Below are positions 4,911 to 26,524 of a DNA stretch of 64,000 nucleotides, piece by piece. Position numbers and translations under genes: made by a program. The stretch is from NCBI RefSeq assembly GCF_014764365.1, contig NZ_CP061718.1:2620501-2684500 (forward strand), written 5' to 3'. Under the pieces are notes generated by a model that was not told where the DNA came from, made no database searches, and saw nothing but the letters and a program-made list of their open reading frames with translations. Position 1 is the first letter of the stretch. Each line of letters begins with the position of its first letter. The stretch is from Roseococcus microcysteis (GTDB taxonomy: Bacteria > Pseudomonadota > Alphaproteobacteria > Acetobacterales > Acetobacteraceae).

Positions 4911-6560
4911 ATGGCCGACAGCTACGTCCATGGCGCCTCGTCCACGCCCCTGTTCGGCGAGACGATCGGCACGCATTTCACCCGCGCGGCGCGGCAATTC
5001 GCCGACCGCCCGGCCCTCATCGTTCGCCACCAGGGCGTGCGCTGGACCTATGGGGAAATGCTGCGCCGCGCCGAGGATGTGGCCGCCAACCTGCTGGCAC
5101 TCGGCCTCAAGCCCGGCGACCGCATCGGCATCTGGTCGCCCAACAACAGCGAATGGGCCCTGACGCAATACGCCACCGCGCTGGCGGGGCTGATCCTGGT
5201 GAACATCAACCCGGCCTATCGGCTGACGGAAGTCGAATACGCGCTGAACAAGGCGGGTTGCGCCGCCATCATCACGGCCACGCGCTTCAAGACCTCCGAA
5301 TACGTCACCATGCTGGAGGTGCTGGGGGCGGAGAAACTGCCCCTGCTGCGCCACCGCATCCAGATCGGCGCCGAGACCCACAAGGGCTACCTGAATTTCT
5401 CCGCGCTGATGGAGCCGGCCAGCGACGCCGCCCGCGCGCATCTGCATGAGGTCTCGGCCACGCTGCAATGCGACGACCCCATCAACATCCAATTCACCTC
5501 CGGCACCACCGGCGCGCCGAAGGGCGCCACGCTGACGCACCACAACATCCTGAACAACGGCTTCTTCATCGGCGAGGCGCAGCGCTTCACCGAGCAGGAC
5601 GTGGTGTGCATCCCGGTGCCGCTCTACCACTGCTTCGGCATGGTGCTGGGCAACCTCGCCTGCACCACGCATGGCGCCGCCATCGTCTATCCCGGCGAGG
5701 GCTTCGACCCGCTGGCCACGCTGGAGGCCGTGCAGGCGGAACGCTGCACCGCCCTCTACGGCGTGCCCACCATGTTCATCGCGCAGCTCAACCACCCGGA
5801 CTTCGCCAAGTTCGACCTGACGACGCTGCGCACCGGCATCATGGCGGGCTCGCCCTGCCCCATTGAGGTGATGCGCCGCGCCATCAACGACATGCACATG
5901 CGCGAGGTCACCATCGCCTATGGCATGACCGAGACCAGCCCCGTCAGCTTCCAGTCCAGCACGACGGACAGCATCGAGCGCCGCGTCTCCACCGTCGGCC
6001 GCATCCACCCGCATGTGGAGGTGAAGATCGTGGACGCGGAGGGCCGCATCGTGCCGCGCGGCACGCCGGGCGAACTCTGCACCCGCGGCTATTCGGTGAT
6101 GCAGGGCTATTGGGGCGACCCCGAGCGTACGGCGGAAGCGATCGACGCCGCGCGCTGGATGCACACCGGGGACCTGGCCGTGATCGACGAGGAGGGCTTC
6201 TGCAACATCGTCGGCCGCATCAAGGACCTCGTCATCCGCGGCGGCGAGAATATCTACCCGCGCGAGGTGGAGGAATTCCTCTTCCGCCACCCCAAGGTGG
6301 CCGAGGTGCAGGTGGTGGGCGTGCCCGACACCAAGTTCGGCGAGGAGCTCTGCGCCTGGATCCGCCTCAAGCCCGGCGAGAGCGCGACGGCGGAAGAGAT
6401 CCGCGCCTACTGCCAGGGCCAGATCGCCCACTACAAGATTCCCCGCTACGTGAAGTTCGTTGAGGAATTCCCGATGACCGTCACCGGCAAGGTGCAGAAA
6501 TTCCTGATGCGCGAACGCATGATCGAGGAGCTGGGCCTCGTGGTGGAAAAGACCGCCTGA
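4911..6560 (+). CDS. acyl-CoA synthetase, AMP-forming (fatty-acid CoA ligase family)
   Basis: This 549-residue adenylate-forming enzyme activates a carboxylic acid as acyl-AMP and then acyl-CoA. It has the phosphate loop [11 protein letters not shown] near residue 195, AYGMTETSP (A5), [14 protein letters not shown] (A7), the hinge region [21 protein letters not shown] (A8) and the catalytic lysine in TVTGKVQK near residue 525. It is the FadD/ACSF2-like medium-chain subgroup by overall sequence look; the acid itself is not deducible. A good AGGGAGG-type ribosome binding site (GGGAGGG) precedes the ATG. It follows gntK by 28 bases. Confidence 0.88.
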
Positions 6561-9837: not shown

Positions 9838-11103
9838 GTGCATATCGTCCTCGACATCTCGCGCCTGCTGGGGCTCGCATGGCATGGACAGCCGAGCGGC
9901 GTGGACCGCGTCGAGATCGCACATGCGCGGCATTGGCGTGCCCTGCCCGAAAGCCGCGTCACCTTCGTCGCGCAGTCGCCCTGGGGATGGTTCGCGGCCC
10001 TGCCGGACGGTTTCGCGCGCTCGCTGCTGACCGAGGCCGACGCGGTGGTCGCGCCGGGCAAGGAGGGCGGGCTCGCGCGGTTCCGGGCCATGGCCGCGGC
10101 GGCGCTGTCGCGTCGGCTCTGGGGCGGCGGGCGCTGGGCGCTGGCGCAGCGCCTCGGCCAGAAGAAGGACAGCGTCTTCCTCGTCACCTCGCACCGGGCG
10201 GTTCACAAGGAGGGCGCGATCGCGGGCGTGGTGGCCGCCGGCGCGCGATTCGTGCCCATGCTGCATGACCTGATCCCGCTCGGCTTTCCCGAGTATTGCC
10301 GCCCGCACTCCACTGTTCAACATGCCCAGCGCCTGCGCGTGATCTCCGCCCTCGCGGCCGGGGTCATCACGCCCACCAGGCATGTCGCGCTGCAATTCCA
10401 TACCCGCCTGCGCGAGGCGGGGCTCGCCCAGCCGCCGGTGCAGGCGGTGGGCCTCGGGCTTGATTTGCCGAACGCCGCCCTCCCCATGCCCGAAACCCCG
10501 CGCGCCGCGCCCTATGTCGTGATGGTCGGCACCATCGAGCCGCGGAAGAACCACCTCCTCGCGCTGCAGATGTGGCGGCAATTTGCGCGGGAGGGGCAGC
10601 CGGGCACCCCCCGGCTTCGCATCATCGGCCGCCGCGGCTGGGACAATGAGGACGTGTTCCGCATGCTGGAGCGCGTGGATTTCGGCGGGCTGGTCGAGGA
10701 ATGCGGCCGCCTGCCGGACCCCGAGGTGGCACGGCTGGTCCGTGGCGCCGCGGCCCTGCTCTCGCCCAGCTTCGCCGAGGGCTATGGCATCCCCGTCGCC
10801 GAGGCGCTGGCCTGTGGCACGCCCGTCATCGCCTCCGACATTCCGCCGGCGCGGGAGGTGGGCGGCCATGTGCCGGAATTCTTCCACCCGCTCGACTTCC
10901 ACGGCTGGTCCGGGGCGGTGCGCGCCCTGGCCGAGCCGGGCAATGCCCGTCGCCAGGCGCAGTTGCAGCGCCTGACCCAGTGGCGCATGCCCAGCTGGAG
11001 CGACCATTTCCGCGAAACGGAGCGTTTCCTGGACCGCCTCTGCGGCCGCGAGCCGCGCCCCGAGGTGCAGGAACGGGCGCTCGCCACGCTTTTGCAGGAA
11101 TAA
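9838..11103 (+). CDS. GT4-family glycosyltransferase
   Basis: This 421-residue GT-B fold enzyme transfers a sugar from a nucleotide-sugar donor, probably at the cytoplasmic membrane face. The donor half has VMVGTIEPRKNHLLAL, the linker of family 4, and SPSFAEGYGIPVAEALACGTPVIASD, the E-x7-E donor-binding motif. The start is GTG at 9838; the upstream ATG at 9821 is out of frame. It is read in the same direction as the PKS cassette with a 190-base gap, so it may supply a surface glycan linked to that cassette. Confidence 0.85.
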   Translation: MHIVLDISRLLGLAWHGQPSGVDRVEIAHARHWRALPESRVTFVAQSPWGWFAALPDGFARSLLTEADAVVAPGKEGGLARFRAMAAAALSRRLWGGGRWALAQRLGQKKDSVFLVTSHRAVHKEGAIAGVVAAGARFVPMLHDLIPLGFPEYCRPHSTVQHAQRLRVISALAAGVITPTRHVALQFHTRLREAGLAQPPVQAVGLGLDLPNAALPMPETPRAAPYVVMVGTIEPRKNHLLALQMWRQFAREGQPGTPRLRIIGRRGWDNEDVFRMLERVDFGGLVEECGRLPDPEVARLVRGAAALLSPSFAEGYGIPVAEALACGTPVIASDIPPAREVGGHVPEFFHPLDFHGWSGAVRALAEPGNARRQAQLQRLTQWRMPSWSDHFRETERFLDRLCGREPRPEVQERALATLLQE

Positions 11104-11293: not shown

Positions 11294-14200
11294 ATGAGAA
11301 TGACCGTACCTACCTTGGCCGGCGGCGGCCCGCCTATCGCCATCGTGGGCGCGGCCTGCCGCCTGCCCGGCGCGCCGGACCTCGGCGCTTTCGCGCGCCT
11401 GCTGGAGGCGGGGCTGGACGCCGTGACCGAGGTGCCCGCCGACCGCTTCACCCAGGCCCGCTTCCTGCACCCCCGCCCGGGTGAGGTCGGCCGCGCCCCG
11501 CATTTCCGTGCCGGCACCATCGGCGATGTCGCGGGCTTCGACGCGCCCGCCTTCGGCATCTCCCCGCGCGAGGCCGATGAGACGGACCCGCAGCAGCGCC
11601 TGCTGCTGGTGCTGACGCGCCGCGCCCTGGAAGATGCCGGCTGGCCCGAGGACCGCGTGTCCGGCCAGCCCATCGGCGTCTATGTCGGCGGCTCCACGAC
11701 GGATTACGGCAACCTCCACCAGGAGGACACCGGCGCGGGCGACCGCTACACCATGGCGGGCAGCGCGCTCTCCATCCTGGCCAACCGCATCGGCAATGTC
11801 TTCGACCTGCGCGGCCCGGCCATGACGGTGGACACGGCCTGTTCCTCCGCGCTCGTCGCCCTGCACGAGGCCTGCGAGGCGCTGCGCCACGGGCGCATCC
11901 CGGCCGCGGTGGTGGGCGGCGTGAACATGCTGCTCTCGCCCTTCCCCTTCGGCGGCTTCTGGCGCGCGGGCATGCTCAGCGCGCGCGGCCGCTGCCAGGC
12001 CTTCGGCGCGGGGGCGGATGGCTATGTGCGGGCCGAGGGCGGGGTGGTGCTGGTACTCAAGCCGCTGGCCGCCGCGCTCGCCGATGGCGATCTCGTGCGC
12101 GGCGTCATTCTCGCCAGCGGGGTGAACGGGGCGGGGCGCACCAATGGCATCTCCCTGCCCGATGCGGGGGCGCAGGCGGCCCTCATCGCCTCGGTGCTGC
12201 GGGCCGGGCGCGTGAAGCCGGCGGGGCTCGGCTATTTCGAGGCGCATGGCACCGGCACCCCGGCGGGCGACCCCATCGAGGCCGCGGCCATCGCCCAGGC
12301 CGTGCAGGGGCGGCGCACCGTGCTGCCCATCGGCTCGGTCAAGAGCAATATCGGCCACACCGAGGCGGCGGCGGGGCTGGTGGGCCTGCTGAAGGCGCTG
12401 GTGGTGCTGGAGACGGGGCGCATCCCCGCCACGCTGCATTGCGAGACGCCCAACCCCAACATCCCCTTCGACCGGCTGGGTCTGATTCCGGCCACGCGGC
12501 CCATGCCCTTCGCGGGCGGGGCGGTGGCGGTGAATTCCTTCGGCTTCGGCGGCACCAATGCCTGCGCCCTGCTGGGCGAAGCACCCCCGCCCCCTGTGGC
12601 ACGCGCCGATGCCGGGGAGGCGCCGCCGCTCATCCTCTCGGCGCAAAGCCACACCGCGCTGCGCCGGCTGGCGGGCGACTGGGCGGCACTGCTGGCCAAG
12701 GTCCCGCCCGACCGCGCCGCCGCCCTGGCACGCGGCCAAGCCCGGCACCGCGCCCTGCGCGCCCATCGCCTCGTGCTGCGCGGCCCGCGCCCGGCCCGCG
12801 CCCTTTCCGGCTTCGCGCGCGGCGAGGAGGTTCCGGGCCTCGCCACCGGCAAGGCCGGGCATGGGGTCGGTGTGGGCTTCCTCTTCACCGGCAATGGCGC
12901 GGCCTGGGCCCGCATGGGCGCGGCCGAGATGCGCGGCAGCGCCCCCTTCCGCGCCGCCGTGGAACGCGCCGATGCCGCGCTGGCGCCGCATCTCGGCTGG
13001 TCCGTCGCCGCCATGCTGGAGCGCGGCGTGACGAAGGCGGAACTCGCCCGCACCGCCATCGCCCAGCCGCTGCTGTTCACCATCCAGCACGCCATCGTCG
13101 CGGCGCTGGCGGCGGAGGGCATCACCCCCGCCTTCTGCATCGGCCATTCGGTGGGCGAGGTGGCGGCGGCCGAGGCGGCCGGCCTGCTCTCGCTGCGCCA
13201 GGCCGCGCGCCTCATCGCCGCGCGCAGCCGCCACCAGGAGGCACGGCGCGGCGTGGGCCGCATGGCCGTGCTGGGCGCCTCGCCCGAGGACGCGCTGCCC
13301 GTGCTGGCCGAATGTTCCGCCGGCGAGGACTGGCCCATCGAGATCGCGGCGGTGAACACGCCCGCCTCGCTGACCGTGGCGGGGCCGGAACCCGCCTTGG
13401 CGCGGCTGGCCGAAGCCGCCGCCGCGCGCCGCTGGGCCTGGCTGGCGCTCGACCTCGACTACGCCTTCCATTCGGCGGCCATGGACCCGGTGCGCGCCGG
13501 GCTGCTGCGGGATTTGCGCGGGCTGCGCGGGCGGGAGGGGGGCGTGCCCCTCATCTCCACCGTGACCGGCCAGGCGCTGGACCCCGCCGAATGCGACGCC
13601 GCCTATTGGTGGCGCAACCTGCGCGAGCCGGTGCGCTTCGCCGATGCCATGGCCACGGGGTTGGCCCGCAACCCCGCCCTGCTGGTCGAGATCGGGCCGC
13701 GGCCGTTGTTGCAGGGCTATCTCCGCACCCTGCTGCGCGCGGCGGGGCGCGAGGTGCCCGGCATGGCCACGCTGCGCCCGCACCGCGCCCGGCAGGCAAA
13801 CCCCTTCCCGGCCCTGGCCGACGCCGCCACGGCCCAGGGGGCCGATCCGCGCGCCAGCCGCGCCTTCCAGGGCCCCGCGGAATTCCGCGCCCTGCCCGCC
13901 CTGCCGCTGGAGCCCCAGCCGCACTGGCTGCCGCGCAGCGTCGAGACCCGCCCCCTGCTGCACACCCCGCCCGAGGGCGGGCTGCTCGGCTACCGCCATG
14001 GCGAGGCGGGGGAGGAATGGCGCAACACCCTCGACACCTCCGGCGCCCCCTGGCTCGCGGACCATGCGCTGGGGCATCAGCCCATCATGCCCGCCGCCGC
14101 CATGGTGGAGATGGCGCTGGAGGCGGGTTTCCTGCGCCACGCCGCCACCCCCTGGCTGGAGGTGACGGATTTCACCATCCTCCGCCCCCTGCCGCTGGTG

Positions 14201-17200
14201 CCCGACGCGCTGCGGGAGCTGCGCACGCGGCTCGACGAGGAAGGCAACTTCCGCCTGAAATCCCGCCGCCGCCTGGGCACCGAGGCCTGGGCGCTGCACG
14301 CCACCGCCCGCCTTTCCGCCCTGCCGCCCCCGCCCGAACCCGAAGGCCCCACCGAAGCTGTTGGCGAATGGCAGGACGGCGCGGCGCTGACCCAGGCGGC
14401 CGCGCGGCTCGGCCTCGACTACGGCCCGGCCTTCCGCCCCGTCACCCGCTTCGCCACCTGCCGCGAGACGGGCCAGGTGCGGCTGGAGCTGGACCTGCCC
14501 GCCACCGCCCCGCCGGACGACGCCTTCCACCTGCACCCGGTGCGGCTGGACGGCGCGCTGCAAGGGCTGCTCGGCCTGCTGGGCGGCGCGGAGGAGGGCC
14601 CGGCGCGCGACGGCTTCCTGCCCGTGCGCTTCGGCCGGGTGCTGGCGCGCCGCGAGGGGGGCGTGGCCGTGGCGGCGGAGATCGCCATCACCGCCCCCGG
14701 CGAACGGGGCGTGGCCGCCCGCATCACGCTCCGCGACGCGCTGGGCCGCGCCGTGGCCCGGCTGGAGGAAGCCACCTTCCAGCGCGTGCCGCTCGGCGAA
14801 CGCGCCGCGGCACCGCCCGTCTTCCACGGCGAATGGGTGCCCGCGGCGGTGCCGCTGGGCTGGCCCGAACCGGCCCCCGCGCTGGACCCCGCCGCGCTCG
14901 ACCCGCCGCCCGCCGGCGCCCCGCTGGAGGAGGCCGCGCTGCTGCTCTCCGCCCATGCGGCGGCGGCGGCGCAGGAGGCCGGGCTCGCCACCGCCGAGGG
15001 CCCGCTGGCCCTGGCGCTCCGCGCCCATCTGGGGCCGGCCGCGCAGGAACTGCCCGCCGCCCATGCCATCTGGCAGCAGGTGATGCTGGACGCGCCCGCC
15101 CTCGCCCAGGAACTCGCCACCCTGGCCGAGGCGGCCGAGGCCCTGCCCGCCGCGCTGCTGGGCCTGCCCATGCCGCCCGCGCGGCTCTCGCCCGATGCGG
15201 AGAGCCTGCGCCTGCTGGGTGCCGCCCTGGCCCATGGCGCGGCCCGGCTGCTGGAGGGCTGGCCCGCCGACCGGCCCTGCCGCGTGCTGCTGGCCGGCGC
15301 CACGGAAGGCCCGCTGCTGCCCGCGCTGCGCGCCGCCCTGCCGCCCGCCGCGCGCCTCATCGCCACCCACCTGCCCGGCCAGCGCCCGCCGCCCGTGCCG
15401 CCGGGGGTGGAACTGGCGGAATGGGACCCCGCCGGCCCCGACGCCCCGCCCGCCGAGGCGGAGCTGGTGCTGGCCCTCGCCCTCTCGCCCCGCCGCGCGG
15501 GCGGCCAGGCCCTGGCCGAGGGGCTGCGCCGCGCCGCCGCGCCCGGTGGCGCCCTGCTGCTGGCCGAACCCCTGCCCGCCCTGTTCTGGGACATGACCGA
15601 GGGGCTGGCCGCCGAATGGTGGACCACGCGCCGCCTGCTGGACGCGGCGGGCTGGAACGCCGCCCTGTTGGGTGGCGGCTGGGACCGGCCGCGCGTGCTG
15701 CCCCTGCCGCCCTTGCCTTGGCCCGCCGCGCTGGTGGCCGCCGCCATGCCGGAAAGCGGCCAATTGCTGCCCGCCGCCATGGGCCGGCATTTCGCCCTCT
15801 GGAACGGCCCGGCGAAGCAGGAATGGGCCCATGCCCTGGCCGAGGCGCTGGCCGCCGCCGGCGCCCGCGTCTCCCGCCTGCCCGACCACCCCGCCCCCGC
15901 CGCGCTGCGTGGCGCCACCCTGCTGGCCTGGCCCGAGCCCGGGCCGGAAGGGCTGGCCGCCGTCGCGCAGCTCGCCGCCACGGCCGAGGGCGCGGCGGAG
16001 GGGCTGCACCTCATCACCCGTGGCGCCACCACCCGCCCGGGTGCCGCGGGGCTGCTGGCGCTGGGCCGCGTCCTGGCCAATGAGATGACGGGGCTGCGCC
16101 CGCGCCGGCATGACCTGGATTTGGGGCTGGACCCCCAAGCCGCCGCAAGGCGCCTCGCCGCCACCCTGCTCACGCCCCCCGACGCGGAGGCCGAGCAGCT
16201 TCTGACCCCGGCCGGGCGCCTGGTGCCGCGCGTGGCCGCCGGGGTGCCCGCCCCGCCGCCGCCGCCCGGCCCGCTTCGCCTTGGGGTCGGCGTGCCGGGG
16301 CAGCTCGGCACGCTGGGCTGGCAACCGGCGCCGGATGTGACCGCCCACACCCTCGGCCCCGGCGAGGTGCGGCTTTCCGTGCAGGCGGTGGGCCTCAATT
16401 TCCGCGACGTGATGTGGGCGCAGGGGCTGCTGCCTGAGGACATCCTCCGCGCCGGTTTCGCCGGGCCGGGCCTGGGCATGGAACTGGCCGGCGTGGTCGA
16501 GGCTGTGGGGCCCGGCTGCGCCCTGGCGCCCGGCCAGGCCGTGCTGGGCGTGGCGCCCCGCGCGCTCGCCACCCGCGCCGTGACGCGGGAGGAGGCGCTG
16601 GTCCCCCGCCCCGGCTGGCTCTCGCCCGAGGAGGCGGCGGGGCTTCCCGTGGCCTTCCTCACCGCCGTGCATGCGCTGGAGGAACTCGGCCGCATCGGCC
16701 CCGGCGACCGCGTGCTGATCCATGGCGGGGCGGGCGCGGTGGGGTTGGCCGCGTTGCAGGTGGCACTCGCCGCCGGCGCCCGCGTGGCCGCCACCGCCGG
16801 CACCGAGGCCCGGCGCGCCCTGCTGCGCGCCGCCGGGGCGGAGGTGGCGCTGGACAGCCGCTCCGCCAGCTTCGCCGAGGAACTCCGCGCCCATTGGCCC
16901 GCGCCGCCCGGCGAGGGCTGCGTGGATCTCTGCCTGAACTCCCTCTCCGGCGAGGCGATGGAGCGCAGCCTCTCCCTCATGGCGCCCTTCGGCCGCTTCC
17001 TCGAACTGGGCAAGCGCGACTATGCGGAGGCGCGGCGCGCGCCCCTGCGGCCGCTGCGCCGCAATGTCAGCTATTTCGCGGTGGATGTGGACGAGCTGGC
17101 CCGCGCCCGCCCCGCTTTGGCCCGCCGCCACCTGGAAAGCCTCATGCGCCGGCTGGAGGAGGGGGTCTTCCGCCCCCTGCCCGTGCGTGTCCACGCCGCC

Positions 17201-18400
17201 GCGACGGTGGAGGACGCCTTCCGCCGCCTCCAGGCGGGCGGGCATGTGGGCAAGCTCGTCATCCGCCCGCCGGAGGAAGCCATCGAGGCCAGCGCCCACC
17301 CCGCCTGGACGCCCCTCCAGGCCCGATGGGGCGATGGCTGGGTGGTGGTGGTCGGCGGCACCACGGGCTTCGGGCTGGAGGCGGCGCGCTGGCTGGCCGG
17401 GCAGGGCGCGCGGCGCCTCGCCCTGCTCTCGCGCCGGGGCGCGGCGGCGCCGGGTGCGGTGGAGGCGGCCGCGAGCCTCGGCCCCATGACCCGCCTGCTC
17501 GCCTGCGACGCCACCGATGCCGCGGCGCTTTCCGCCGCGCTCGACACGCTGCGCGCCGAGGCGCCCATCACGGGCGTGGTCCATGCCGCCGCCGTGCTGT
17601 CGGACGGCGTGGCCGCGCGACTCGACATCCGCGCCGCCCGCGCGGTGTGGGACGCCAAGGTGACGGCGGCCGAACACCTCGACCGGCTGACCGAACCCGA
17701 TGCCCCCGGCCTCTTCCTGCTGTTCTCCTCGGCCACCGTGCCCATCGGCAGCCCGGGCCAGGCGGCCTATGTCGCGGCCAATGCGGGCATGGAGGCGCTG
17801 GCCCGCCGCCGCCGCGCCCAGGGCCGCCCGGCGCTGGCCGTGCAATGGGGCCCGATCTCCGATGCCGGGATGCTGGCCGGCCAGGAGGCGCGCGCCGAGG
17901 GCCTGGCCCGCCGCCTGGGCGCCGTGGCGCTGACCGCGCGCGAGGCGCTGGACCGCCTGCCGGCCTTGCTCGCCTCCGGGGTCGCGGTGGCGGGCGTGGC
18001 GCGGCTCGACTGGCCCGCCGCGCGCCGCAGCCTGGCTTTGCTGGCCGAACCGCCCTTCCTGGCCCTGGCCGGGCAGGTGGGGGCGGAAGGCGAGGCGGAG
18101 GAGATCTCACTCCCCGCGCTGCGCGCCATGGCGGAAGATGCCGCACGGGAGGCGATCCAGCGTATGGTGGGCGTCGAAATCGGACGGATCCTGCGCTTGC
18201 CCGCCCACAGCATCGCGCTCGACGCGCCGCTCGCCGGCCTCGGCCTCGACAGCCTGGGCGGGCTGGAACTGCGGACGGCGTTGGAACGGCGTTTCTCGGT
18301 GTCATTGCCCCTCCAGGGCGTGGGCGAGGGGCTGACGGTGCAGAGGGTGGCCCAATTGCTGCTGGAGGGATTGAAGCCCGGCCGCGAGGCGGCGGAATGA
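11294..18400 (+). CDS. highly reducing type I polyketide synthase (KS-AT-DH-degenerate MT-ER-KR-ACP), RkpA/WcbR-like
   Basis: This 2368-residue single-module synthase has the following domains. KS about 12-435 carries the triad C183 (DTACSSA), H318 (EAHGTGTP) and H355 (KSNIGH). AT about 525-840 has S619 in GHSVGE, a malonyl-type motif. DH about 890-1160 has H924 and D1086. A remnant C-methyltransferase and structural KR occupy about 1300-1660. ER about 1670-1990 has the NADPH loop HGGAGAVG at 1810. KR about 2010-2250 has Y2159 in GQAAYVAANAG. ACP about 2280-2360 has the phosphopantetheine Ser S2320 in GLDSLGG. All reductive domains look active, so a saturated chain is expected, probably by iterative use. 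There is no thioesterase; release is likely by the adjacent oxoamine synthase, whose start overlaps this stop by four bases. Confidence 0.9.
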   Translation: MRMTVPTLAGGGPPIAIVGAACRLPGAPDLGAFARLLEAGLDAVTEVPADRFTQARFLHPRPGEVGRAPHFRAGTIGDVAGFDAPAFGISPREADETDPQQRLLLVLTRRALEDAGWPEDRVSGQPIGVYVGGSTTDYGNLHQEDTGAGDRYTMAGSALSILANRIGNVFDLRGPAMTVDTACSSALVALHEACEALRHGRIPAAVVGGVNMLLSPFPFGGFWRAGMLSARGRCQAFGAGADGYVRAEGGVVLVLKPLAAALADGDLVRGVILASGVNGAGRTNGISLPDAGAQAALIASVLRAGRVKPAGLGYFEAHGTGTPAGDPIEAAAIAQAVQGRRTVLPIGSVKSNIGHTEAAAGLVGLLKALVVLETGRIPATLHCETPNPNIPFDRLGLIPATRPMPFAGGAVAVNSFGFGGTNACALLGEAPPPPVARADAGEAPPLILSAQSHTALRRLAGDWAALLAKVPPDRAAALARGQARHRALRAHRLVLRGPRPARALSGFARGEEVPGLATGKAGHGVGVGFLFTGNGAAWARMGAAEMRGSAPFRAAVERADAALAPHLGWSVAAMLERGVTKAELARTAIAQPLLFTIQHAIVAALAAEGITPAFCIGHSVGEVAAAEAAGLLSLRQAARLIAARSRHQEARRGVGRMAVLGASPEDALPVLAECSAGEDWPIEIAAVNTPASLTVAGPEPALARLAEAAAARRWAWLALDLDYAFHSAAMDPVRAGLLRDLRGLRGREGGVPLISTVTGQALDPAECDAAYWWRNLREPVRFADAMATGLARNPALLVEIGPRPLLQGYLRTLLRAAGREVPGMATLRPHRARQANPFPALADAATAQGADPRASRAFQGPAEFRALPALPLEPQPHWLPRSVETRPLLHTPPEGGLLGYRHGEAGEEWRNTLDTSGAPWLADHALGHQPIMPAAAMVEMALEAGFLRHAATPWLEVTDFTILRPLPLVPDALRELRTRLDEEGNFRLKSRRRLGTEAWALHATARLSALPPPPEPEGPTEAVGEWQDGAALTQAAARLGLDYGPAFRPVTRFATCRETGQVRLELDLPATAPPDDAFHLHPVRLDGALQGLLGLLGGAEEGPARDGFLPVRFGRVLARREGGVAVAAEIAITAPGERGVAARITLRDALGRAVARLEEATFQRVPLGERAAAPPVFHGEWVPAAVPLGWPEPAPALDPAALDPPPAGAPLEEAALLLSAHAAAAAQEAGLATAEGPLALALRAHLGPAAQELPAAHAIWQQVMLDAPALAQELATLAEAAEALPAALLGLPMPPARLSPDAESLRLLGAALAHGAARLLEGWPADRPCRVLLAGATEGPLLPALRAALPPAARLIATHLPGQRPPPVPPGVELAEWDPAGPDAPPAEAELVLALALSPRRAGGQALAEGLRRAAAPGGALLLAEPLPALFWDMTEGLAAEWWTTRRLLDAAGWNAALLGGGWDRPRVLPLPPLPWPAALVAAAMPESGQLLPAAMGRHFALWNGPAKQEWAHALAEALAAAGARVSRLPDHPAPAALRGATLLAWPEPGPEGLAAVAQLAATAEGAAEGLHLITRGATTRPGAAGLLALGRVLANEMTGLRPRRHDLDLGLDPQAAARRLAATLLTPPDAEAEQLLTPAGRLVPRVAAGVPAPPPPPGPLRLGVGVPGQLGTLGWQPAPDVTAHTLGPGEVRLSVQAVGLNFRDVMWAQGLLPEDILRAGFAGPGLGMELAGVVEAVGPGCALAPGQAVLGVAPRALATRAVTREEALVPRPGWLSPEEAAGLPVAFLTAVHALEELGRIGPGDRVLIHGGAGAVGLAALQVALAAGARVAATAGTEARRALLRAAGAEVALDSRSASFAEELRAHWPAPPGEGCVDLCLNSLSGEAMERSLSLMAPFGRFLELGKRDYAEARRAPLRPLRRNVSYFAVDVDELARARPALARRHLESLMRRLEEGVFRPLPVRVHAAATVEDAFRRLQAGGHVGKLVIRPPEEAIEASAHPAWTPLQARWGDGWVVVVGGTTGFGLEAARWLAGQGARRLALLSRRGAAAPGAVEAAASLGPMTRLLACDATDAAALSAALDTLRAEAPITGVVHAAAVLSDGVAARLDIRAARAVWDAKVTAAEHLDRLTEPDAPGLFLLFSSATVPIGSPGQAAYVAANAGMEALARRRRAQGRPALAVQWGPISDAGMLAGQEARAEGLARRLGAVALTAREALDRLPALLASGVAVAGVARLDWPAARRSLALLAEPPFLALAGQVGAEGEAEEISLPALRAMAEDAAREAIQRMVGVEIGRILRLPAHSIALDAPLAGLGLDSLGGLELRTALERRFSVSLPLQGVGEGLTVQRVAQLLLEGLKPGREAAE

Positions 18401-19698
18401 GCGGCGGCCCCCCGCGTCGCCGCGGCCTTTCCCCGCAGGAGCGCGCGGCGCTGCTGGGGCGCATGAACGCGCCCAGCGCCGCGCCCGCCAGCACCAGCGC
18501 ACGCGACTTCTCGACGCTGCCCGCTTCGCGCGAGGTGGCGGCGGTGCGCAACCTCTCGCGCCAGACCGGCATCAGCAGCCCCTATTTCCACAGCCATGAG
18601 GGCATCGCGGGCGCGCATACGCGCATCGCGGGGCGGGAGATGATCAACTTCTCCTCCTACAACTACCTCGGGCTGAACGGGGACGCGCGCATCCATGCGG
18701 CGGCGACCGCGGCCATCGCGCGCTATGGCGTCTCGGCCTCGGCCTCGCGCTATGTCTCGGGCGAGCGGCCGGTGCATGCGGCGCTGGAGGCCGCGCTGGC
18801 CCGGCACCATGGGGTGGAGGATGCGGTGGCGATGGTCTCGGGCCATGCCACCAATGTGACCACCATCGGCCACCTGGTGGGCCCCTCCGACCTGATCCTG
18901 CATGACGCGCTGATCCACAACAGCGCGGCCGAGGGCATGCGGCTGTCCGGCGCGCGGCGCATGGCCTTCCCGCACAATGACGCGGCCGCCGCCGGGGCGG
19001 TGCTGGCGGCGGAGCGCGGGCGGCACAACCGCGCGCTGATCCTCATCGAGGGCCATTACTCCATGGACGGCACGGTGCCGGAGCTGGCGGCCTTCGTGGC
19101 CCTGGCCCGCAAGCATGACGCCTGGCTGATGGTGGATGAGGCGCATTCGCTGGGCGTGCTGGGCCCGACGGGCCGCGGCATCGCCGAGGCGCAGGGCGTG
19201 GACCCGCGCGAGGTGGACATCTGGATGGGCACGCTGTCCAAGGCGCTGGCCTCCACCGGCGGCTACATCGCGGGCAGCCACGCGCTGGTGGACATGCTGC
19301 GCCACACGGCGCCGGGCTTCGTCTATTCCGTGGGCCTGCCGCCCCCGCTGGCCGCGGCGGCCGAGGCGGCGCTGGGCCTCATCGCGGCCGAGCCCTGGCG
19401 GGTGACGAAATTGCAGGCCAATGCGCGCCGCTTCCGCGACCAGGCGCGCGCGGCGGGCTTCGACGCCGGGCAATCCACGGGCTTCGGCATCGTGCCCATC
19501 GTGCTGGGGGATTCCTATACGGCCATGCGCGTGGCGGACCGGTTGGTGGCCGCGGGCATCAATGTGCAGCCCATCTGCTTCCCCGTGGTGCCGGAGGGGC
19601 AGGCAAGGCTGCGCTTCTTCCTCTCCTCCGAGCACAGCGAGGCCGATCTCGACCGCACCATCGAGGCGCTGCGCGCCGCCGCCCGGGAGGCGGCGTGA
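18397..19698 (+). CDS. alpha-oxoamine synthase (AONS/SPT-like), RkpG/WcbT-like
   Basis: This 433-residue type I fold PLP enzyme of the 8-amino-7-oxononanoate synthase/serine palmitoyltransferase family condenses an acyl thioester with an amino acid, releasing CO2 and giving an alpha-amino ketone. Visible motifs are NFSSYNYLGL, GVSASASRYVSG, DALIHNSAAEG, VDEAHSLGVLG and the PLP lysine K282 in GTLSKALASTGG. An N-terminal extension of about 75 residues precedes the core. Its coupling to a PKS without thioesterase suggests it offloads the polyketide from the ACP, as in fumonisin biosynthesis and rhizobial K-antigen loci. A biotin role is unlikely because no bio genes are near. Confidence 0.88.
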   Translation: MSGGPPRRRGLSPQERAALLGRMNAPSAAPASTSARDFSTLPASREVAAVRNLSRQTGISSPYFHSHEGIAGAHTRIAGREMINFSSYNYLGLNGDARIHAAATAAIARYGVSASASRYVSGERPVHAALEAALARHHGVEDAVAMVSGHATNVTTIGHLVGPSDLILHDALIHNSAAEGMRLSGARRMAFPHNDAAAAGAVLAAERGRHNRALILIEGHYSMDGTVPELAAFVALARKHDAWLMVDEAHSLGVLGPTGRGIAEAQGVDPREVDIWMGTLSKALASTGGYIAGSHALVDMLRHTAPGFVYSVGLPPPLAAAAEAALGLIAAEPWRVTKLQANARRFRDQARAAGFDAGQSTGFGIVPIVLGDSYTAMRVADRLVAAGINVQPICFPVVPEGQARLRFFLSSEHSEADLDRTIEALRAAAREAA

Positions 19699-19702
19699 GG
19701 AA

Positions 19703-20476
19703 TTGCGGGTCGCGTTGTTCACCCTGGAGGGCGCCGCCAGCGCGGAGGCCACGTTGCGTTTCGCCGAAAGCCTGGGGCCGCGCCTCGTGCTGGTGGGGCA
19801 CTCCTCCCCCTTCCGCGCCACAAGCGCGACCTGGCGCGCGCTGCGGCGGGGCGGCCTGGGGCTGCTGCCCTATCTCATGGTCAACCATGCCCTGCCCATG
19901 CTGGGCGGGGCCTTGCGAAAGCCCCCCCGCCTTTCCGCCCTCTGCGCCGCGCGCGGCATCCCCGCGCTGCGCCTGGGCGCGCCCGAGGCGATGCGGGCGG
20001 CGCTCAGCGCCGCGGGGGCGGAGCTGCTGGTCTGCTACCACCTGGACCGCATCCTGGACGCCGAGACGCTGGCCCTGCCGCCGCGCGGGGCGATCAACGT
20101 GCATCCCTCGCTGCTGCCGCGCCACCGCGGGCCCATCCCCACCTTCCACGGCCTGGCCGAAGGCGCCACGGGCGTCAGCATCCACCAGATGGCGCCGCGC
20201 ATTGATGCGGGCGGCGTCTGGGCGCAGCAGGCGGTGCCCCTGCCGCCCGGCACCAGCGCCAGCGCCGCCGCCCGCGCCCTGCACCTGGCCGCCCTGCCGC
20301 TGCTGGAAGAGGTGCTGGCGCGCATCGCGGCCGGCGAGGCCCCGCCCGCGCCGCCCGAGACGCTGCCCTATCGCGGCTGGCCCACCCCCGCCGCCCGGCG
20401 CGCGGCGGGCGTGAAGCTGCTGGGGAAGGGTGACGTGGCGGCCGCCTGGCGTGCGCCCGCGGGGGGCTGGGCGTGA
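19703..20476 (+). CDS. formyltransferase-fold protein in the PKS/capsule cassette
   Basis: This roughly 257-residue protein carries the N-terminal domain of methionyl-tRNA/GAR formyltransferases. GAINVHPSLLPRHRGPIP contains N132 and H134, and RIDAGGVWAQ contains D168, matching the Asn-His-Asp catalytic set of that fold. It lacks the C-terminal tRNA-binding domain of Fmt, so a small-molecule or lipid amine is a better substrate guess. In this cassette the amine made by the oxoamine synthase is an obvious candidate (inference). The start is uncertain: TTG at 19703 gives MRVALFTLEG, five bases after the previous stop. The end overlaps the next gene by four bases. Confidence 0.72.
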   Translation: MRVALFTLEGAASAEATLRFAESLGPRLVLVGHSSPFRATSATWRALRRGGLGLLPYLMVNHALPMLGGALRKPPRLSALCAARGIPALRLGAPEAMRAALSAAGAELLVCYHLDRILDAETLALPPRGAINVHPSLLPRHRGPIPTFHGLAEGATGVSIHQMAPRIDAGGVWAQQAVPLPPGTSASAAARALHLAALPLLEEVLARIAAGEAPPAPPETLPYRGWPTPAARRAAGVKLLGKGDVAAAWRAPAGGWA

Positions 20477-21681
20477 AGCGCTTCCTTTTCCTGCAAGGCC
20501 CCATCAGCCCCTTCTTCGACCGGCTGGCGGCGGAGCTGCGCGCGCGCGGCCACGCCACCCACCGCATCAACCTCTGCCTGGGCGACAAGCTGTTCTGGCG
20601 CGGGCCGGGGGCCGTGGACTTCACCGGACGGCTGGCCGACTGGCCGCGCTTCATCAGCGAATTCCTGGACCGCGAGGCCATCACCGACCTGGTGCTGCTG
20701 GGCGAGCAGCGCGTCTATCACCGCATCGCCATCGGAGCGGCGCAGGCGCGCTCCATCCCGGTCGCGGCCACCGACTACGGCTATCTCCGGCCGGACCGCA
20801 TCATCCTGGAGCGGGACGGGCACAACGCCATGTCCCACTTCCCGCGCGAGCCGGCGGAGATCCTGCGCCTGGCGGAGGCCTCGCCGCCGCTCGCCTCCCC
20901 CACGCCCTTCCGTGACAGCTTCGCGCGGCAGGCCCGCTGGGACTGGGCCTTCCACATGGCCAACATGCTGCCCTGGCCCTTCCGGCATTTCGAGACGCAT
21001 CTGCTGAACTCGCCCATCCCGATCTATCTGGGGACCGGGGTGCGGCTGGCGCTGCGGCCCCTCGCGCGGCGGCTCGGCCAGCGCCTGCTGGACCGGCTGC
21101 CGGCGGAGGCGCCGCTCTTCGTCTTCGCCATGCAGATGGAGATGGATTTCTCGCTCCGCGCCTATTCGCCCTTTCCCGACCAGGACACGCCCATGCGCGA
21201 GACGGTGGCGAGCTTCGCCGCCCATGCGCCGCCGCAGGCCCACCTGGCCTTCAAGGTCCATCCGCTCGACCCCGGGCTGAAGTGGTGGTCGCGGCGGGTG
21301 ATGCGCATGGCGCGCGCGGCCGGTGTGGCGGGGCGGGTGCACTTCGTGGATGGCGTGCCGATCGGCGCCCTGCTGGCACGATCGGCGGGGGTGATCACGG
21401 TGAACAGCACCGCCGGCATGAACGCGCTGGAGGCCGGCAAACCCCTGCTGGCACTGGGCGAGGCGGTGTACCGCGTGCCGGGACTGACCCATGAATCGGG
21501 CCGGGACCGCTTCTGGACCGCCCCCGAAGCGCCCGACTGCGCCTTGTTCCAGGCCTTCCGCCGCGCCATCAGCCATCATCTGCATGTGGTCGGCGGATAT
21601 TACGATGACGAGGCGCTGCGCCACGCCATCCAGGGCACGGCCGACCGGCTGGAGGCGGGGCTGCCGCTGCTGGGGGCGTGA
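20473..21681 (+). CDS. KpsS/RkpJ-like capsule polysaccharide protein (beta-Kdo transferase family)
   Basis: This 402-residue protein matches the Capsule_synth family (KpsS, LipB, RkpJ, WcbO) by overall pattern. It begins FLFLQGPISPFFDRLAAELRARGH; in the C-terminal half are HLAFKVHPLDPGLKWW and the terminal block GVITVNSTAGMNALEAGKPLLALGEAVY, which is typical of this group. KpsS and KpsC build the Kdo linker on the lipid end of group 2 capsules. The GTG start at 20473 overlaps the previous stop (GTGA). It points to a role in the lipid-linked end of a capsule-like glycan. Confidence 0.85.
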   Translation: MKRFLFLQGPISPFFDRLAAELRARGHATHRINLCLGDKLFWRGPGAVDFTGRLADWPRFISEFLDREAITDLVLLGEQRVYHRIAIGAAQARSIPVAATDYGYLRPDRIILERDGHNAMSHFPREPAEILRLAEASPPLASPTPFRDSFARQARWDWAFHMANMLPWPFRHFETHLLNSPIPIYLGTGVRLALRPLARRLGQRLLDRLPAEAPLFVFAMQMEMDFSLRAYSPFPDQDTPMRETVASFAAHAPPQAHLAFKVHPLDPGLKWWSRRVMRMARAAGVAGRVHFVDGVPIGALLARSAGVITVNSTAGMNALEAGKPLLALGEAVYRVPGLTHESGRDRFWTAPEAPDCALFQAFRRAISHHLHVVGGYYDDEALRHAIQGTADRLEAGLPLLGA

Positions 21682-23977: not shown

Positions 23978-25395
23978 ATGATCTTCGCCTCCTTCGAATT
24001 CCTGTTCCTGTTCCTGCCGGCCTTCCTGCTGGCCTATTTCCTGAGCCCCCGCGCGCGCGCAACGCCGTCATCCTGGCCTTCTCCTGGGGCTTCTACGCCT
24101 GGTGGCGGGTGGATTTCCTGGCGCTGCTGGTGGGCGTCACGGTCTGGAGCTTCTGGATTGCGCAGGCCATGGAGGGGCGGAGCGAAGCCGCACGGACACG
24201 GCTGCTGGTGCTGGGCCTCACCGGGCAGCTTGGCGTGCTGGGCTGGTTCAAATACGCCAATTTCGGCGTGCAGACCTTCAACGACGCGGTGATGGCCCTG
24301 GGCGGCACGCCCATGCCCTGGGCGCAGATCATCCTGCCCGTGGGCCTGTCCTTCTACGTGCTGCAATCGGTCAGCTACCTGGTGGACGTGTATCGGCGCG
24401 ACGTGCCGACCAGCCGGGATTTCGTGGCCTATGCGGCCTACAAGGCCATGTTCAGCCAGCTCATCGCCGGGCCCATCGTGCGCTATGCCGAGGTGGCGGA
24501 GGATCTGCGCGCCCGCACCCATAGCCTGGAAAAATTCGGCCTGGGCGCGCGCCGCTTCATGGTGGGCTTCGCCATGAAGGTGCTGGTGGCCGACACGCTG
24601 GCGCCCGTGGTGGATTCCGTCTTCGCCCTGCCCGCCCCCACCACCGCCGAGGCCTGGGTCGGCGCCATCGCCTACACGCTGCAACTCTTCTTCGACTTCG
24701 CGGGCTATTCGGCCATGGCCATCGGGCTGGCCATGATGTGCGGCTTCCGCTTTCCCGAGAATTTCGACAACCCCTACCTCGCCGGCAACATCCAGGAATT
24801 CTGGCAGCGCTGGCACATGACGCTGAGCCGCTTCCTGCGCGACTACCTCTACATCTCGCTGGGTGGAAACCGGCACGGCCCCGTTCGGACCTATGCCAAC
24901 CTGCTGCTGACCATGGTGATCGGCGGGCTGTGGCATGGCGCGAACTGGACCTTCATCGTCTGGGGCTTCTGGCATGGCGCCCTGCTGGCCCTGCACCGCT
25001 TCTGGCGCGCCTCGGGCGGCGGCCCCATGCCCTGGATCCTGGGCCATGCCTTGCTGATGCTGGCCGTGATCCTGGGCTGGGTGGCCTTCCGCGCGCCGGA
25101 TTTCGCATCCGCCTTCACCCTCTACGCCGCCATGTTCGGGGCGAATTGGGGCGGCATCTCGGACGCGCTCGCCTGGCAAATCACGCCGGACCAATGGTGG
25201 TTCCTCTGGCTGGCGCTGGGCCTGGTCTACCTGCCGCTGCTGGCGGGGCGCCTGCCCTTCCTGCGCCTCTCGCCCGAGGGGCTGTCCGGCCTGTCGCGTC
25301 CCGTCTGGATGTGGTGGCCCTTCGCGGCCTTCCTGCTCGGCCTCGTGCTGCTCTACAGCCGCGCGGCCGTGCCATTCCTGTATTTCCAGTTCTGA
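23978..25395 (+). CDS. MBOAT O-acyltransferase, AlgI/WssH-like (one-base frameshift)
   Basis: This membrane-bound O-acyltransferase would move acyl groups across the inner membrane for cellulose acylation. The reading frame begins MIFASFEFLFLFLPAFLLAYF at 23978 and shifts at the C5 run 24046-24050. One added C gives a continuous protein of about 472 residues (LSPPRARNAVILAFSWGFYAWW), the normal AlgI length. Multiple transmembrane helices, RWHMTLSRFLRDYLYISLGG and the catalytic-His region GGLWHGANWTFIVWGFWHG are intact. It is followed 10 bases later by an AlgX-like gene. If the shift is real the gene is dead; sequence error is more likely. Confidence 0.85.
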
Positions 25396-25405
25396 GGCGC
25401 CGCCG

Positions 25406-26524
25406 ATGACCAGCTGGACCCGCACCCCCGCCACCGCCCTGGCCCTGCTGACCACGGCGCTGCTGGGCTGGGGCGTCTATCAGGGCGTGGCCGCCCTGCG
25501 CTCCGACGCCGCGCAGGCGCGCCTCGCCCCCACGCTGAACGCCGAGGCCTTCCTGGATGGGCGCACCACGGCGGCGGTGAACCATGTGCTCGCGCACCAC
25601 CTGCCGGCCGACCCCTGGGTGCGCGCGGCGGGGGGGCTGTTCCGCTGGGGCATCTTCAACTCCGGCGGGCCAGCGGTGCGGGTGGGCTGCGAGGGCTGGC
25701 TGTTCCTCACCGAGGAACTCCGCCCCTTCGACGGCGCCGAGGCCGCGATGGCCGCGCGCGTGGAGGCGCTGCGCCGCATCCAGGCCGCGCTCGCCGCGCG
25801 CGGCATCGCGCTGGTGCTGGCCGTGGTGCCGGACAAGGCGCGGGTGCAGGAGGGAATGCTCTGCGGCGCCCCCCGCTCCGCCCAGGCCGAGGCGCGGCTG
25901 CCGGCGCTGGAGGCCGCGCTCTCCGGCCTGCCCCAGGCGCCGCTGTTGCCCGCGCTTTCGGCGCTGGCCGCGCGCGAACCGGCCTATTGGCGCACCGACA
26001 CGCATTGGAACCAGCAGGGCGCCGTGGTGGCCGCAGCCGCCATCGCCGAGGCCACCCGCGCCCTGCCCTTCGAACGCCGCCCCGGAATCGCCACCACCCG
26101 GGCGCCCACCGAGACCGAGGCCCCGGCCGACCTGCTGCGGCTGATGGGCCTCGACCTCCTGCCCGACCCCTGGCGCCCCCGCCGCGACCGCCAGCACGAG
26201 GCCACCACCACTGTGCCGGCGGGCGAAGGCGGCGGGCTGCTGGACGAGGCGGTGCCGGAGGTGGTGCTGCTCGGTTCCTCCTATTCGCTCAACGCCAATT
26301 TCCATGGCGCCCTGCAACAGGCGCTGGGGGCGGCCGTCACCTCATTGGCCCAGGCGGGCGGCGGCTTCCATGGCGCGGCGGCCGCCTTCTTCGGCGGCGC
26401 CACCTTCCGCGAGACGCCGCCGCGCCTCGTCATCTGGGAATTCCCGGAGCGCGTCATGGGCCAGCCCATCAGCCCCGCCGAGCGGGAATTCCTGGACGGC
26501 TGGCGTGAGAGCGGGATGCGTTGA
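25406..26524 (+). CDS. AlgX/AlgJ-like SGNH-fold acetylation protein
   Basis: This 372-residue envelope protein has an N-terminal signal anchor (ALALLTTALLGWGVYQGV) and an SGNH-type domain: WLFLTEELRPFDG, VLAVVPDKARV, the Asp-His pair in WRTDTHWNQQGA, and the nucleophile serine in VVLLGSSYSLNANF. In alginate systems AlgX/AlgJ take acyl groups delivered through the MBOAT protein and attach them to the polymer in the periplasm. It is directly behind the MBOAT gene and convergent with a second algJ-like gene, so cellulose is the likely target. Confidence 0.8.
   Translation: MTSWTRTPATALALLTTALLGWGVYQGVAALRSDAAQARLAPTLNAEAFLDGRTTAAVNHVLAHHLPADPWVRAAGGLFRWGIFNSGGPAVRVGCEGWLFLTEELRPFDGAEAAMAARVEALRRIQAALAARGIALVLAVVPDKARVQEGMLCGAPRSAQAEARLPALEAALSGLPQAPLLPALSALAAREPAYWRTDTHWNQQGAVVAAAAIAEATRALPFERRPGIATTRAPTETEAPADLLRLMGLDLLPDPWRPRRDRQHEATTTVPAGEGGGLLDEAVPEVVLLGSSYSLNANFHGALQQALGAAVTSLAQAGGGFHGAAAAFFGGATFRETPPRLVIWEFPERVMGQPISPAEREFLDGWRESGMR

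Follow-up and report, generated by a model that had tools for sequence, protein, structure and literature searches.

The 64,000-nucleotide stretch of DNA analysed here, referred to as the window, belongs to contig NZ_CP061718.1, 4,208,010 bases long, of Roseococcus microcysteis (Acetobacteraceae; assembly GCF_014764365.1, positions 2,620,501 to 2,684,500) and contains, on its forward strand, one operon of five genes, the last four of which are tightly packed. The conserved first gene (9838-11103) encodes a GT4-family glycosyltransferase (PF00534); it is followed by an iterative type I polyketide synthase (PKS) of the RkpA/WcbR/SgaA type, identified by Pfam and motifs, with the domain order KS-AT-DH-ER-KR-ACP and no thioesterase (11294-18400), by an alpha-oxoamine synthase (AOS) of the RkpG/SgaB type, resembling serine palmitoyltransferases (SPT) (18397-19698, PF00155), by a formyltransferase (FT) with the PurN/Fmt fold and a TTG start codon (19703-20476, PF00551, E 7.6e-18), and by a KpsS/RkpJ-like capsule protein (20473-21681, PF05159, E 4.9e-62). 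The PKS stop and the AOS start share 4 bp, as do the FT stop and the start of the KpsS-like gene, and the AOS is separated from the FT by a gap of 4 bp; this packing suggests translational coupling of the four genes. The initial annotation, made from the letters of the window, had named these four families at the same coordinates, and Pfam confirmed them, but it had overlooked the GT4 gene upstream. A second GT4 paralogue, with 43% identity to that of the operon, lies outside the window at G000:C1:709106-710293.

The FT had been regarded as an unusual member of this gene set. It is not an isolated oddity, since in relatives it alternates, in the same place directly after the AOS, with a gene of the ceramide synthase (CerS) type coding for a putative N-acyltransferase. 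For this comparison, 97 AOS rows were retained at E <= 1.1e-100, with exclusion of weaker SPT-like rows; FT rows were retained at E < 1e-30 in 58 of 64 genomes, and eight weaker matches (six from genomes with nothing better and two second matches) were dropped as probable ordinary formyltransferases; the CerS-type rows are 25 places selected manually among the strongest matches of a homology search. The gene directly following the AOS is the FT in 45 rows and the CerS-type gene in 20; no row has both, against an expected 9.3 if the two occurred independently. The remaining 32 rows have neither gene in the slot, the FT being elsewhere or further off in 12 and neither an FT nor a strong CerS-type match being linked in 20. 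When the slot labels were re-read from sequence in 78 genomes, 46 were FT, 20 CerS-type and 12 neither. On the AOS tree (85 rows; G150, a short fragment, was dropped), a minimum of 8 changes between the two states is required, which becomes 6 when branches with support below 80 are collapsed and 4 when those below 95 are; moreover, both states occur within each of the genera g4, g16 and g17. Such repeated replacement of two unrelated enzymes after the AOS is most simply explained if both perform the same step, that is, the formation of an amide on the amine of the AOS product.

The CerS-type gene, of about 375 codons, gave no Pfam or NCBIfam match in the three copies tested. By tblastn it is homologous, along some 97% of its sequence, to Escherichia coli YghO and to a Roseomonas “dATP pyrophosphohydrolase”, with 30-36% identity (30.5% over 97% for YghO), and its structure model (pLDDT 87.9) has a tandem GNAT fold, the best Foldseek match being 2wpw (E 3.9e-16). 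Homology and fold assign it to the CerS/aca/YghO group, one branch of which takes the FT place, and N-acylation is predicted; the tandem GNAT fold is distinct from the PurN/Fmt fold of the FT. The neighbours of E. coli yghO code for SPT-like, ACP, epimerase/short-chain dehydrogenase (SDR) and acyl-AMP ligase proteins. yghO has been listed with CC_1154 as an acyl-CoA N-acyltransferase (aca) of dihydroceramide synthesis (PMC9386255), CC_1154 has been proposed as a CerS (PMC11324152), and the bacterial CerS has been placed in the cytoplasm, before the reduction step (PMC11087976). A Pseudomonas GNAT protein was rejected as a possible relative of the FT or of the CerS-type protein for lack of significant similarity (E 0.63 and 0.57). 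The R. microcysteis genome contains no CerS homologue at E <= 1e-5 and no AOS other than that of the operon at E <= 1e-60, and on these grounds a canonical sphingolipid pathway in this genome was rejected.

Other arrangements downstream of the AOS were also observed. In L160, L163 and L164, from genus g89, the gene after the AOS has 439 codons and is GT4-like, as judged by eye only, and the FT, where found, is on another contig. L110-L113, with the AOS near 9.2-10.6 kb, form another AOS branch, in which some members have an SDR directly after the AOS and neither the FT nor the CerS-type gene follows it; this branch includes G278, a genus mate of the window, so that the trait varies inside the genus.

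The FT itself appears to be an intact enzyme family: its triad N132-H134-D168 is unchanged in 36/36 aligned sequences, after exclusion of 7 of 42 loci with no usable open reading frame. Its structure model (pLDDT 94) matches best the folds of Fmt, WbkC and ArnA, and the PF00551 fold with the Asn-His-Asp triad assigns it to Formyl_trans_N; it scores below the NCBIfam cut-offs for fmt (76.6 vs 201.5) and ArnA (56.3 vs 777). Of the named relatives found, the closest come from Roseococcus suduntuyensis, at 95%, and from R. thiosulfatophilus, at 92%. A basic segment, residues 34-76, has a mean net charge of +6.9 in 35 sequences; that it might serve for membrane docking is only an idea.

The same fold and triad are found in the sugar N-formyltransferases ArnA, WbkC and VioF, and solved ArnA N-formyltransferases are the closest solved relatives of the FT by profile (3.2e-32). 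Together with the presence of a GT4 and a KpsS-like gene in the operon, and with FT relatives that stand apart from the AOS, these similarities would fit the N-formylation of an amino sugar, or of the corresponding nucleotide sugar, that goes into the capsule or its linker, by an enzyme that merely shares an operon with lipid genes. This is unlikely in our view, as the FT occupies the slot of a CerS-type lipid N-acyltransferase, never beside one, and has the AOS and KpsS as operon partners, not genes for nucleotide sugars. In addition, among 299 genomes the FT occurs in 58 and the AOS in 97, and 57 of the 58 FT genomes carry this AOS (Fisher p 1.3e-33, which is not a true probability since the genomes are related). 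The five operon genes include no sugar aminotransferase, a result limited to the operon since no genome-wide search for nucleotide-amino-sugar genes was made, and the conserved basic segment falls outside the ArnA-aligned stretch, which begins at profile position 77. The FT is thus most likely, as had been suspected initially, a capping enzyme that is predicted to N-formylate a lipid amine, that of sphinganine or of its 3-keto form. Among the open-licence literature matches listed, no description of this formyltransferase or of N-formyl sphingoid lipids was found.

The PKS gives Pfam matches for KS, AT, DH, ER, KR and ACP domains and none for a thioesterase family. A pattern scan detected active-site motifs in all six domains: the Cys-His-His residues of KS, GHSxG and YAFH in AT, the Asp motif of DH, the nucleotide-binding motifs of ER and KR, Ser-Tyr-Asn of KR and the ACP serine; the DH histidine motif, HALGHQPIMP, was matched only with a loosened pattern. 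The YAFH motif presumably denotes a malonyl-type AT. Because all the motifs of the reducing domains are present, a fully reduced chain is expected, and the proposal that this enzyme makes a saturated acyl-ACP is supported. Being mono-modular and iterative, with intact reducing domains and without thioesterase, the protein corresponds to the Sga-type PKS; its identity is 37% over 1250 aa with Sinorhizobium meliloti RkpA and 39% over 2472 aa with a M. bullatum PKS.

The AOS, which directly follows the PKS and for which the proposed release of the acyl chain is supported, is SPT-like: its PLP-lysine motif, MGTLSKALASTGG, aligns with MGTFSKSLASLGG of the solved SPT 3a2b. It is 52% identical to the rkp-locus AOS and to its counterpart in a Pseudomonas PKS cluster. 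The enzyme is predicted to condense the acyl-ACP with an amino acid, most likely L-serine. Against solved chains, the KBL/AONS-type 8s1y (8.9e-62) scores as high as the SPT 3a2b (3.9e-59), and the AOS, in spite of its SPT-like motifs, remains below the NCBIfam cut-off of every curated SPT model; these scores would also be compatible with the use of glycine or alanine, which would lead to a formyl-capped amino ketone or amino alcohol of the deoxy type, with the anchor hydroxyl derived from the reduced ketone. We consider this alternative unlikely, given the similarity of the PLP-lysine motif, GTLSKALASTGG, to that of SPT, GTFSKSLASLGG, and the almost exclusive specificity for serine reported for SgaB (PMC12134224).

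The chemistry of such a PKS and AOS pair is known from Pseudomonas fluorescens MYb115, in which PfSgaA (the PKS) and PfSgaB (the AOS, a serine palmitoyltransferase) produce C24-C28 sphinganines and most likely also phosphoglycerol-sphinganines, and 6,101 homologous clusters have been found (PMC12134224). The PfSgaAB(C) system has the same mono-modular PKS and adjacent SPT-type AOS as the window, with an SDR as presumed 3-ketosphinganine reductase; the likeness is set by gene make-up, and not by sequence identity to SgaA and SgaB. Since this comparable cluster has a proven product (PMC12134224), the lipid of the PKS and AOS, for which the initial annotation had thought of long-chain amino ketones or N-formyl derivatives, is most likely of the sphinganine type. 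The main text of PMC12134224 contains neither “formyl” nor “capsul”. Thus, the formation of a sphingoid base by a PKS and an AOS is of an already known kind, and what is new is the FT in the place of a ceramide synthase. The swf clusters of sponge symbionts also contain a mono-modular KS-AT-DH-ER-KR-ACP PKS, once compared with wcb and rkp; kinship with the operon was rejected on the basis of their partner genes, a reductase-sulfotransferase and a radical SAM protein, which are unlike those of the window (PMC3908369).

It had been noted that the set lacks a separate ketoreductase of the RkpH type. This is true of the operon, but the genome does contain an SDR of the 3-ketosphinganine reductase type, at G000:C1:2494609-2495355, about 135 kb away. 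This gene is the best match in the genome to a Methylobacterium SDR that directly precedes the FT (47%, E 2.3e-54), and its product is 39% identical to its counterpart in the Pseudomonas PKS-AOS cluster and 29% to RkpH. A second SDR, with 45% identity, is found at 3732799, so that the assignment of the first as candidate ketoreductase is likely, and not unique. In the surrounding region, G000:C1:2484000-2503900, there are also genes for a KpsC-like protein, an ABC transporter and polysaccharide export; in several relatives of the Roseomonas group, KpsC, ABC and KpsE genes, in some cases also the SDR, share a stretch with the PKS operon.

The last gene of the operon codes for a protein with 43% identity over 394 aa to S. 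meliloti RkpJ; it does not reach the KpsS equivalog cut-off of NCBIfam (161.7 vs 600 bits) and is therefore named KpsS-like (PF05159) only. KpsS transfers a single Kdo (3-deoxy-d-manno-oct-2-ulosonic acid) to (lyso-)phosphatidylglycerol (PG) (PMC7694667), and the earlier idea that the KpsS-like protein acts on a glycolipid is supported: its predicted role is the transfer of the first Kdo onto the lipid acceptor. The parallel drawn at first with rkpA, rkpG and rkpJ holds for all three proteins (PKS 37%, AOS 52%, KpsS-like 43%), which are found together both here and in the S. meliloti rkpA-G-H-I-J locus of pSymB (L010); here, unlike in S. meliloti, the SDR is at a distant locus and the FT and GT4 are additional. 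As for RkpI, no homologue (lipoteichoic acid (LTA) synthase type) was found in the R. microcysteis genome, either with an Acidisoma query or with a relative's query that matches 60/299 genomes, and its six sampled genus mates yielded no LTA-synthase-type gene either. An alternation of the GT4 with an LTA-synthase gene was considered and rejected, as no clean pattern emerged.

Two plasmid-borne clusters are of interest in this respect. The Pseudomonas cluster L013 combines PKS, AOS, SDR, LTA synthase and KpsS/KpsC-like genes. A stretch of an Acidisoma plasmid (L012, 12777-26926) contains an SDR, an AOS, a sterol desaturase, glycosyltransferases, two KpsS/C-like genes, an LTA synthase, an ABC exporter and a CerS homologue, and no PKS; it might be a sphingolipid cluster that is tied to a capsule and draws on ordinary acyl chains.

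Conservation of the gene set among relatives, on which the initial annotation had staked its proposal, is strong. In 19 FT loci from sampled genomes of the same family, the PKS is next to the AOS in 17 and a same-strand KpsS-like gene follows the FT in 17; the GT4 gene is upstream of the PKS in 14. The five FT loci without GT4 are L087, which is cut inside the PKS, L079 and L081, which have no PKS, and those of G216 and G248, two genus mates of the window, where the GT4 is on another contig. The 13 CerS-type loci have the PKS in 13/13, KpsS in 12/13 and the upstream GT4 in 12/13. Among the named FT loci, which are the best 80 of 214 relatives, with many stretches ending at contig edges, the AOS was found in 54, the SDR in 36, KpsS in 59, and the AOS or the SDR in 74; they include Methylobacterium, Enterovirga and Paraburkholderia ferrariae. 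Eleven genomes were checked for the 26 named loci without a nearby AOS, and nine hold an AOS with 53-63% identity elsewhere, while two do not. Viral contigs gave two pattern matches and no relative of the KpsS-like protein.

These same frequencies bear on whether the lipid is an anchor at all. The products of PfSgaAB are free sphinganines and phosphoglycerol-sphinganines, read as secondary metabolites (PMC12134224), and no LTA-synthase-type gene was found in the R. microcysteis genome; hence, the operon might yield a free exported or membrane sphingolipid, merely decorated by the KpsS-like protein and the GT4, with no role as capsule anchor. This appears rather unlikely, considering how regularly a same-strand KpsS-like gene follows in the FT loci and in the CerS-type loci, and that several Roseomonas-group relatives have KpsC, KpsE and ABC transporter genes, some of them also the SDR, in the same stretch. 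Phosphoglycerol-sphinganine resembles lyso-PG, and a role as capsule acceptor for lipids of this kind is a reasonable inference from that analogy.

Altogether, the operon would make an N-formylated, sphingolipid-type lipid acceptor for an ABC-exported surface polysaccharide of the rkp/kps type, a reading in its full extent to which we assign a probability of about 52%. The PKS would build a long saturated acyl chain on its own ACP; the AOS would free it by decarboxylative condensation with L-serine, giving 3-ketosphinganine; the distant SDR would reduce the ketone; the FT would transfer a formyl group from 10-formyl-tetrahydrofolate to the amine, in place of a CerS-type N-acyltransferase; the GT4 and the KpsS-like protein would attach the first sugar and Kdo residues, respectively; and extension and export of the chain would fall to the KpsC-like protein and the ABC exporter of the SDR locus. 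This scheme builds on what the DNA itself contains, namely the genes, their packing and conservation, the intact motifs and the FT/CerS-type alternation. From these we infer serine as the substrate, the formylation of the amine, its timing relative to the reduction, what the GT4 does and the use of the lipid as KpsS acceptor; sphinganine formation by a PKS and an AOS (PfSgaAB) and the addition of Kdo to (lyso-)PG by KpsS are proven in other systems.

Several observations weigh against this predicted acceptor pathway. The best solved relatives of the FT are sugar and tRNA formyltransferases, with Fmt and WbkC among its best fold matches, no curated NCBIfam model, SPT included, recognizes the AOS above its cut-off, and the CerS label of the alternative slot gene depends on 30-36% identity. 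A cap directly after the AOS is not obligatory, as indicated by the 20/97 rows with neither gene linked and the 12/97 with the FT elsewhere, and no amine cap is reported on the MYb115 sphinganines (PMC12134224, section 7). The order of acylation and reduction is disputed in Caulobacter (PMC11324152, PMC11087976). Two of the 19 FT stretches have no PKS beside the AOS, and 20/80 of the named FT loci have an SDR and no AOS in the stretch. Finally, in L180 (8657-11591), the one of these 20 loci analysed by Pfam, an FT relative lies between a histidinol dehydrogenase and a FabG-type SDR, with no AOS or capsule genes; this second context indicates that the FT also occurs outside lipid clusters, and it weakens the proximity of FT and SDR as an additional proof of a lipid role.

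Elsewhere in the window, a fatty acyl-CoA ligase scoring above its NCBIfam cut-off (NF009233) is encoded on the forward strand at 4911-6560, about 3 kb upstream of the GT4, and could feed or recycle acyl chains. Downstream, at 24109-26524 on the same strand, an MBOAT acyltransferase is followed by an AlgX-like SGNH protein, a pair which we take to resemble those involved in glycan O-acetylation.

More broadly, that two unrelated enzymes have replaced each other repeatedly in a single position is genetic evidence for the role of this step. A tentative view, to which we give somewhat less than even odds, is that an exported polysaccharide of Acetobacteraceae/Roseomonadaceae and Methylobacterium has as its anchor a PKS-made N-formyl-sphinganine, a one-carbon “ceramide”, whose amide-forming enzyme (the FT or a relative of ceramide synthases) has been swapped several times. 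The lipid termini of rkp/wcb-type capsules have been poorly characterized, and the combination of PKS-sphinganine chemistry with KpsS offers a testable structure for them. If this is true, the rkp/wcb/sga PKS clusters would generally make sphingoid capsule acceptors, and the phosphoglycerol-sphinganine of MYb115 would be a mimic of the lyso-PG used by E. coli KpsS; likewise, an N-formyl sphingoid lipid would represent a new kind of membrane lipid, and its folate-derived formyl group would link capsule anchoring to one-carbon metabolism.

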